Source of the DNA: an uncultured Bacteroidia bacterium
GTDB taxonomy: Bacteria; Bacteroidota; Bacteroidia; NS11-12g; UBA9320
Direction of reading: 5' to 3'
NCBI GenBank assembly: GCA_943787465.1
Contig: CALSMN010000005.1
Span: forward strand, 247,480-311,479
DNA: 64,000 nucleotides
Each line of letters begins with the position of its first letter. Position 1 is the first letter of the stretch. The notes below the pieces were generated by a model that was not told where the DNA came from, did not search any database, and saw nothing but the letters and a program-made list of their open reading frames with translations. The position numbers and the translations under genes are program-made. This document shows, piece after piece, positions 40,937 through 43,733 of this stretch.

Positions 40937-41797
40937 ATGATATTAGTTGCCGACAGTGGATCTACAAAATGTGATTGGATGATCATCGATCAGGATAACA
41001 CCAAGCATAAAACAAATACAATGGGATTTAACCCATTTTTTCATTCAACTGATTTCATTTTAGCTAAGATTCAAGAAAACGAGTTGTTTAATACCTATCA
41101 ATCTCAAATTAAAGAAGTCTATTTCTATGGTGCAGGATGCTCTAGCGCACCCCGTAAACTAATCCTAAAAAATGCGTTGAGTCAATTTTTTACTACTGCA
41201 GAAAAAATTGATATCGATCATGATTTGACAGGAGCGGCATTAGCGACGACACCTTTTAATCCAGGCATTGCTTGCATTTTGGGAACTGGATCTAATTCCT
41301 GCTATTATGACGGACAAAAAGTTTACGAAGAAGTACCCGCTCTAGGCTATATATTGGGTGATGAAGGAAGTGGAGCCTATTTTGGTAAAATACTGCTTGC
41401 AGACTGGCTATATAAAAGAATGCCAGCTGATTTAGCCAAAAGTTTTGAGTCTCGTTATACATTGACTAAAGAAGGAATTTTTAGTGCAATCCATCAGGAG
41501 TCTAATCCGAATGTCTATTTGGCCAGTTTCATGCCTTTTGTCAGTGAAAATAAAACGCATCCTTATATGAAAGATATGGTATATCAAGGGTTGGCAAAAT
41601 TTTGTAGCATACACATTTGGTGCTTTGATAATTTCAGAGATATCCCGGTTAATTTTGTTGGATCCATTGCCCATTATTTTAAAGATTTATTAAAAGAAGT
41701 AGCTGACAATCATAGATTTACAATTGGAAATATCGAGAAAAAGCCGATTGACGCATTAGCTGAATACCATCTCAACCATCAAAAAGAAATGTCATGA
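40937..41797 (+). CDS. BadF/BadG/BcrA/BcrD-type ATPase, N-acetylglucosamine kinase-like
   Basis: ILVADSGSTKCDWMI, LGTGSNSCYYDG, GDEGSGAYFGK. Confidence 0.88.
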   Translation: MILVADSGSTKCDWMIIDQDNTKHKTNTMGFNPFFHSTDFILAKIQENELFNTYQSQIKEVYFYGAGCSSAPRKLILKNALSQFFTTAEKIDIDHDLTGAALATTPFNPGIACILGTGSNSCYYDGQKVYEEVPALGYILGDEGSGAYFGKILLADWLYKRMPADLAKSFESRYTLTKEGIFSAIHQESNPNVYLASFMPFVSENKTHPYMKDMVYQGLAKFCSIHIWCFDNFRDIPVNFVGSIAHYFKDLLKEVADNHRFTIGNIEKKPIDALAEYHLNHQKEMS

Positions 41798-42444
41798 GTT
41801 TAGCGGCCATTATTTATAACTTGGACGGCGTGATTACGGATACCGCCAAATATCATTTTGAGAGCTGGAAGTGGGTAAGTAAGCAACTTGATTATAAACT
41901 ATCCGAAAAACAGAATTTAAAACTCAAAGGAATTGGTCGAAAAGAGTCGCTAGAAAAAATTTTAAAATGGAGTGGATCACGTATTTCTGAAGCTCAAAAA
42001 CAACATCTTCTCCAAATGAAAAATCAAATGTATTTGGAATTCATAGATACCATGACTCCTTCAGAAATCTTTCCAGGGTTTAAAAAATTTAATTCTTCTG
42101 TCAAAGAAAATGGAATTAAGGTAGCCATTGGTTCAAGCAGTAGAAATGCAATCCGAATCATTGATAAATTAGATTTAGTGCTTGACTTCCACGCCATTGT
42201 TGATGGTGGTATGACAGAACATACTAAACCAGAACCTGATATTTTTCTTTTAGCTGCAGAAAAACTGCAAACACCTACCTCATCTTGCCTAGTTATTGAA
42301 GACTCACAAGCTGGACTTTCCGCTGCCAAGAAAGCAGGTATTAAGGGCGTTTTGTATGGGGAAGATAAAGGACTGAAGGGGGCTCAACTTCAAATAAAAA
42401 ATTGGGAGCATGCCCATTTAGATAAGCTAAACGATTTATTCTAG
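41794..42444 (+). CDS. HAD-family beta-phosphoglucomutase homolog with Asn at the nucleophile position
   Basis: IIYNLDGVITDTAKYHFESWKWV (canonical FDLDGVITDTA), SSSRNAIRIID, TKPEPDIFLLAAEKL, VIEDSQAG. Confidence 0.88.
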   Translation: MSLAAIIYNLDGVITDTAKYHFESWKWVSKQLDYKLSEKQNLKLKGIGRKESLEKILKWSGSRISEAQKQHLLQMKNQMYLEFIDTMTPSEIFPGFKKFNSSVKENGIKVAIGSSSRNAIRIIDKLDLVLDFHAIVDGGMTEHTKPEPDIFLLAAEKLQTPTSSCLVIEDSQAGLSAAKKAGIKGVLYGEDKGLKGAQLQIKNWEHAHLDKLNDLF

Positions 42445-42494: not shown

Positions 42495-43733
42495 TTGCAG
42501 CTCCTATCAAAAATCATCCATCATCCAGTAACTAAGCAGATCACGCTTTATCTATGCTTACTTTTAGTTATAGGTGAGATATCCCGAGATATTTTTCGCG
42601 ACGGTGATTTTGCTGGTTACATTTCTGCAGGAAAGTTAGCTTGGAATAAGCTGCCGATTTATAGTGATTACAAAAACACGTGGCCCCCTTTTTTTTCGTT
42701 AGTGAGTATTCCGATTTATGGTCTTAATCAAATTAGTTTTGTAGGTTTAAGATTATGTTGGTTAATAGGAATTGTAGTTGCAAATTTTTATATCATTCAA
42801 TGGGTCATAGGTCAATGCACAACCTATCAACTCAGAATTAGACCCAATGATCACAACAAAAATCAAATTGGATTAACTCATCCCCTATTTTTAGTTAGTT
42901 TCTTATGCACACTTCGAATTTTTCTTGAGGAACTGAGTAATCTTCAAATCAACCTATTCATACTTGCCATCAGTATGTATATTCTAAATTTAATTCTAAA
43001 CGAAAAAAATATTTTTGCTGGCTTGCTTCTTGGCTTGATTATAAGTATCAAAGTTTATCCATTAATTATTTTGGGCTTTTTATTGTTTAAACGTAAGTTT
43101 ATTCCCGCCATATATTCCGTTATAGGTTTAGCTATCTCAACCAGTTTAGTTTTTGTTTATTTCGGCTATCAAGAGGGGGTATCGCTTTTCCATTCTTGGA
43201 CCACTACACAAGTAGTCAATGGTATGAAATGTGAGTTTATGAATCAATCCATCTGGGGGTGGTTATGTGGGCTATTTACAGCTAATCCTCGGATGGATGG
43301 ATTGGATTATTCCATTCTAAATCTATCTCATTCTACTTTTAAAATAAGCACATTAGGAATCATTAGTCTTTTAGGTTTTTTCTTCGCATATCGATTTTAT
43401 CAAACCAGAAATCATAAAAATGCATGGATAGTCCAATACATCATTACGTTATCATTAATTCCAATTATTTCCCCATTGGCATGGAAATACTACTATGTTT
43501 TCCTAACACCACTTGTGGTACTATTGGTCAATCGTTTCCAAAAATATAAAACTTCACCATGGTTTTATGTCCCCATTTTAGGGATAACGTTCACTTCTGA
43601 ATTGTTTATCGGCTCCCACTTTTCGGATATTACTGAGGCAATGGGCATTATTCCATTCAGCGCATTGATCTTATCTATTTATGCCACACAATGTTTGTTG
43701 GAATTTAAGGAAGAATCATCAACAACTGATTAA
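42495..43733 (+). CDS. GT87-like (DUF2029) polytopic membrane glycosyltransferase
   Basis: About 10 hydrophobic segments; GLLLGLIISIKVYPLIILGFLLFKRK. Confidence 0.78.
   Translation: MQLLSKIIHHPVTKQITLYLCLLLVIGEISRDIFRDGDFAGYISAGKLAWNKLPIYSDYKNTWPPFFSLVSIPIYGLNQISFVGLRLCWLIGIVVANFYIIQWVIGQCTTYQLRIRPNDHNKNQIGLTHPLFLVSFLCTLRIFLEELSNLQINLFILAISMYILNLILNEKNIFAGLLLGLIISIKVYPLIILGFLLFKRKFIPAIYSVIGLAISTSLVFVYFGYQEGVSLFHSWTTTQVVNGMKCEFMNQSIWGWLCGLFTANPRMDGLDYSILNLSHSTFKISTLGIISLLGFFFAYRFYQTRNHKNAWIVQYIITLSLIPIISPLAWKYYYVFLTPLVVLLVNRFQKYKTSPWFYVPILGITFTSELFIGSHFSDITEAMGIIPFSALILSIYATQCLLEFKEESSTTD

Follow-up and report, generated by a model that had tools for sequence, protein, structure and literature searches.

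Beta-phosphoglucomutase (bPGM) of L. lactis is phosphorylated on Asp8 (D8) in the course of catalysis and is required for the use of maltose and trehalose (PMC7608592). GH65 maltose phosphorylase yields beta-glucose 1-phosphate (PMC3899277), and clusters for alpha-glucan and maltose use in Bacteroidota comprise susCDE, MFS, bPGM, GH65, GH13, and GH97 genes (PMC9131120, PMC11093988). Literature searches on D8 mutants, on deamidation, and on pseudoenzymes of the HAD family with a naturally occurring Asp-to-Asn change yielded nothing usable. Here we describe a bPGM homolog with Asn in place of the nucleophilic Asp, encoded in a 64,000-nucleotide stretch of DNA (referred to here as the window) from an uncultured Bacteroidia bacterium.

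Results

The bPGM homolog (41794..42444, + strand) is an intact open reading frame of 216 amino acids, and its N-terminus, which includes Asn9, reads MSLAAIIYNLDGVITDTA. Reading of the sequence shows AAC at bases 41818-41820 (+), the codon of the nucleophilic Asp, and a phmmer alignment (E = 6e-38) places Asn9 in the column of D8 of L. lactis bPGM. The replacement of the nucleophile that a first-pass annotation of this DNA had reported is thus confirmed by both the sequence and the alignment. One G-to-A substitution accounts for the change from Asp to Asn. We found GAC or GAT at the nucleophile codon in 109/109 relatives from an order and GTDB-wide scan, whose identity to the Asn9 protein runs from 74-78% within the genus (14 sister species), the closest relatives in a comparison set without conspecific genomes, down to about 29%. 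Since all 109 relatives carry GAC or GAT, the Asn codon is private to the window genome. The first-pass annotation had held that an Asp codon in close relatives would speak against its observation; the alignment does show Asp throughout, which marks the change as private but does not argue against its being real. That annotation had also listed Tyr8 along with Asn9, but Tyr8 is normal across the genus and was ruled out as part of the anomaly. Furthermore, in a 36-member alignment, 10 columns are invariant among 35 bPGMs drawn from the order and from farther afield; at these columns the window protein has a single private change, D9N, and the other 14 members of the genus have none.

The rest of the protein is that of a bPGM. 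It scores 205.1 bits on TIGR01990 against a curated cut-off of 189.4, and the proteins of known structure closest to it are bPGMs, including that of B. subtilis (PDB 3nas, E=1.6e-50). An AlphaFold2 model of the Asn9 protein has the HAD core and C1 cap (pLDDT 92.7), and its top Foldseek matches are solved bPGMs (TM 0.74-0.93, the best being 0.93 to 4g9b). The sequence and residue table show that Asp11, which corresponds to the general acid/base D10, is intact (codon GAC, 41824..41826, +), and the invariant-column alignment and residue table show the same for Ser114 of motif II (42133..42135, +), Lys145 of motif III (42226..42228, +), and the Mg ligands Glu169-Asp170 of motif IV (42298..42303, +). 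Indeed, the SSSRN, KPEPD, and EDSQAG motifs are all present, as first noted, and in L. lactis numbering the protein keeps D10, T16, H20, W24, R49, S114, N118, K145, P146, E169, and D170; the K117 position is Arg, as it is in most of the genus. Judged by its residues, the active site is complete apart from the nucleophile. Where a bPGM has the phosphorylated Asp (D8), this protein has Asn9, and by the alignment, the residue table, and the model it has the character of a pseudoenzyme, in which an essential residue is gone and the fold is kept. The gene is a true ortholog of the bPGM of the genus, and no second bPGM paralog that could replace it was found in the window genome at E<=0.001.

The bPGM gene is preceded by a gene for a sugar kinase, a BadF/NagK-like ATPase of 286 amino acids (40937..41797, +) with weak, below-cut-off matches to PF01869 (19.5 bits) and NF046058 (25.3 bits), whose substrate is probably glucose or GlcNAc. 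As the first-pass annotation had stated, the two open reading frames overlap by 4 bp (ATGA; 40937-41797 and 41794-42444). A neighborhood comparison showed that this order and overlap are common to the genus; the overlap is also present in sister species that have an intact bPGM and an operon running on into GH65. It is therefore ancestral, and we rejected the idea that coupling to the kinase forms a new regulatory connection. The kinase is retained in many relatives that lack both bPGM and GH65. Downstream, the window has a gene for a GT87-family membrane protein (42495..43733, +; PF09594) at the place where a GH65 phosphorylase directly follows bPGM in G001, G009, G011, and G012, in which the operon continuation also contains a GH13 enzyme. 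The kinase-bPGM operon likewise continues into GH65 in the family members G024 and G034, and GT87 follows bPGM in the sister subclade formed by G003, G007, G008, G010, and the window genome. The neighborhood shares 22 genes with G008, which are collinear, matched in length, and free of signs of frameshift.

The window genome comprises 10 contigs and is 99.5% complete. Searches with the GH65 family model, and with a sister protein at E<=10, gave 0 matches in it; it lacks GH13 enzymes altogether, and nothing in it matches the MFS transporter of the sister alpha-glucan cluster. GH65 is present in 12/18 other genomes of the genus, and among the 19 genus genomes GH13 is absent only from the window genome and from G010, which is 80% complete. 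In G008, GH65 lies away from bPGM within the alpha-glucan cluster well known from Bacteroidota, where it is grouped with an MFS transporter, two GH13s, a NUDIX/winged-helix regulator, SusD, and SusE/F-like genes. The G008 regulator gene, which is NUDIX-like with a winged helix (NrtR/AraR-type), adjoins the MFS and GH65 genes (L187:6202-6951). G008 also carries a second, diverged bPGM (37% identical; L210, G008:C123:493-1104) with intact catalytic residues, on a contig shared with a GH13 match.

We found that bPGM and GH65 are strongly linked. In a table drawn from 58 relatives and restricted to genomes at least 90% complete, 23 genomes have both, 4 have bPGM only, 0 have GH65 only, and 17 have neither (Fisher p=8.7e-9). 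Among the relatives and the order-wide scan, the core catalytic set is intact in 48/48 bPGMs from GH65-bearing genomes; the bPGM of G096, which is intact and lies at a contig edge, was left out of the 48. Within the genomes without detected GH65, bPGM is altered in 3/7, namely the window genome (G000, D8N), G023, and G025, which belong to three genera. The difference between 3/7 and 0/48 (p = 0.0013, or 0.014 without G025) comes from a post hoc test whose p values ignore relatedness, beyond noting the three different genera. The G023 protein has H20Q, R49Q, K145N, E169S, and D170R and keeps the Asp nucleophile; it is a full-length bPGM-like open reading frame at the same position (L194:10391-11035), with no kinase adjoining and no GH65 found in the genome. 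The G025 homolog is altered in motif II (S114A, K117S, and N118H) and possibly has a different specificity; it lies away from the kinase (L193:7527-8267) in a genome that is 99% complete and in which no GH65 was found. The remaining four bPGMs without detected GH65, in G007, G010, G015, and G027, keep the Asp, in genomes that are fragmented or incomplete. G007, G010, and G027 are incomplete or contaminated, and GH65 may be just unassembled there. GH65 was also not found in G015, where a remnant of the operon kinase with in-frame stops lies directly upstream of the intact bPGM (L192:3113-3298), which suggests decay there too.

A codon model gave an omega of 0.026 on the window bPGM branch against a background of 0.017, a difference that is not significant and an estimate that is rough because synonymous changes along the branch have almost reached saturation. 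Values above about 0.08 were disfavored and 1.0 was rejected (2dlnL about 26). Since omega covers the whole branch, selection before D9N is inseparable from any that came after it. Relaxed or accelerated evolution was rejected, with neither Tajima relative-rate tests nor the branch omega being significant; the foreground omega of the kinase hit the branch-length bound and cannot be relied on. Because bPGM evolved under purifying selection for the greater part of this branch, either D9N is recent, or the protein has another role, or the base is wrong.

Discussion

Our data make it fairly likely that the window bPGM has recently lost its function, having been made redundant by the loss of its pathway. 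The cluster of the sister species fits a route in which GH65 phosphorolysis of maltose would give beta-glucose 1-phosphate and glucose, bPGM would convert the former to glucose 6-phosphate as the last step of alpha-glucan and maltose use, and the kinase would handle the glucose. Loss of the GH65/GH13/MFS module in the window lineage would then have left bPGM without substrate supply, and the G-to-A change in the nucleophile codon would have been tolerated afterwards. The outcome would be a folded protein unable to form the aspartyl-phosphate, that is, a non-functional enzyme at an early stage, with its gene still undegraded. We infer that bPGM activity has been lost, how the events were ordered, and that the AAC base is real. 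We counted the missing module, the linkage of bPGM with GH65, and the altered sites in genomes without detected GH65 for loss of function; the lack of detectable relaxation counts against it, since an old loss of GH65 should bring more decay, as does the Asp kept in G007, G010, G015, and G027, though the state of those genomes tempers the point.

If AAC were a sequencing or consensus mistake, a single-base error as the first-pass annotation had also suggested, or belonged to a minor allele, Asp would be the residue of the species as a whole. A single G-to-A change suffices for this, every relative has Asp, and strong purifying selection acts on the remainder of the protein; however, the 22 genes shared with G008 show no hint of frameshift errors, and only by coincidence would an error strike the nucleophile codon in the very enzyme that has lost its pathway in this genome. 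We regard an error or minor allele as unlikely. It is more doubtful still that the protein was kept, and selected after catalysis was lost, for a non-catalytic role such as phosphosugar binding, sensing, or partnership with the kinase. The intact open reading frame, the confidently predicted fold, and purifying selection along most of the branch would suit such a role, as would the G023 homolog, which persists at full length in the same position without K145 and both Mg ligands, but the whole-branch signal may mostly predate D9N, the kinase occurs without bPGM in many relatives, no new pattern of conservation is seen among the residues that contact the sugar, and Asn is found in no relative. 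Of the dead enzyme and the repurposed regulator coupled to the kinase that the first-pass annotation proposed, the dead enzyme is the best reading, while the regulatory coupling gained no positive support. The decisive context, the lost alpha-glucan pathway, lay beyond the sequence available to that annotation.

Activity of the Asn9 protein through slow deamidation to Asp, or through an alternative nucleophile, has in its favor that the other catalytic residues are all present and that Asp9 would complete the site. An Asn-Leu pair within a buried strand is a slow context for deamidation, which makes the spontaneous deamidation suggested in the first-pass annotation unlikely; moreover, no relative uses such a route and GH65, the source of the substrate, is absent, and we consider continued activity by either means very improbable.

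Loss of function thus remains the reading that we prefer, and the window bPGM looks caught between use and decay, with its pathway gone, its open reading frame intact, and its decisive residue changed. The pattern of catalytic sites altered only where GH65 goes undetected offers a simple means of spotting dead enzymes through their missing partners. A bolder proposal, to which we give little credence, is that after loss of the phosphorylase the bPGMs of this order repeatedly become folded, non-catalytic proteins kept by selection. If true, the window protein without its nucleophile and the G023 protein without motifs III and IV would be two independent sugar-phosphate-binding pseudoenzymes from the same operon. 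Since the TIGR01990 score exceeds the cut-off, automatic annotation would predict maltose and trehalose metabolism that is probably absent here.

Compared with the bPGM family (TIGR01990, EC 5.4.2.6; L. lactis PgmB and B. subtilis 3nas), the window protein shares the sequence family, the fold, the cap and core residues, and every HAD motif except the first Asp, and its gene likewise lies beside a sugar kinase; it differs in that D8 is Asn and that the genome has no GH65 phosphorylase. Compared with the alpha-glucan clusters of Bacteroidota, the sister species keep GH65, GH13, MFS, SusD, and SusE/F-like genes together, with the kinase and bPGM attached in several species, whereas the window genome retains only the kinase and the altered bPGM. 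Engineered variants (bPGM D10N and D170N; CbbY D10N, 4uau) carry the same carboxylate-to-carboxamide change in a HAD active site. The engineered bPGM changes hit the acid/base or Mg-ligand Asp, whereas the change in the window is natural and falls on the nucleophile D8.
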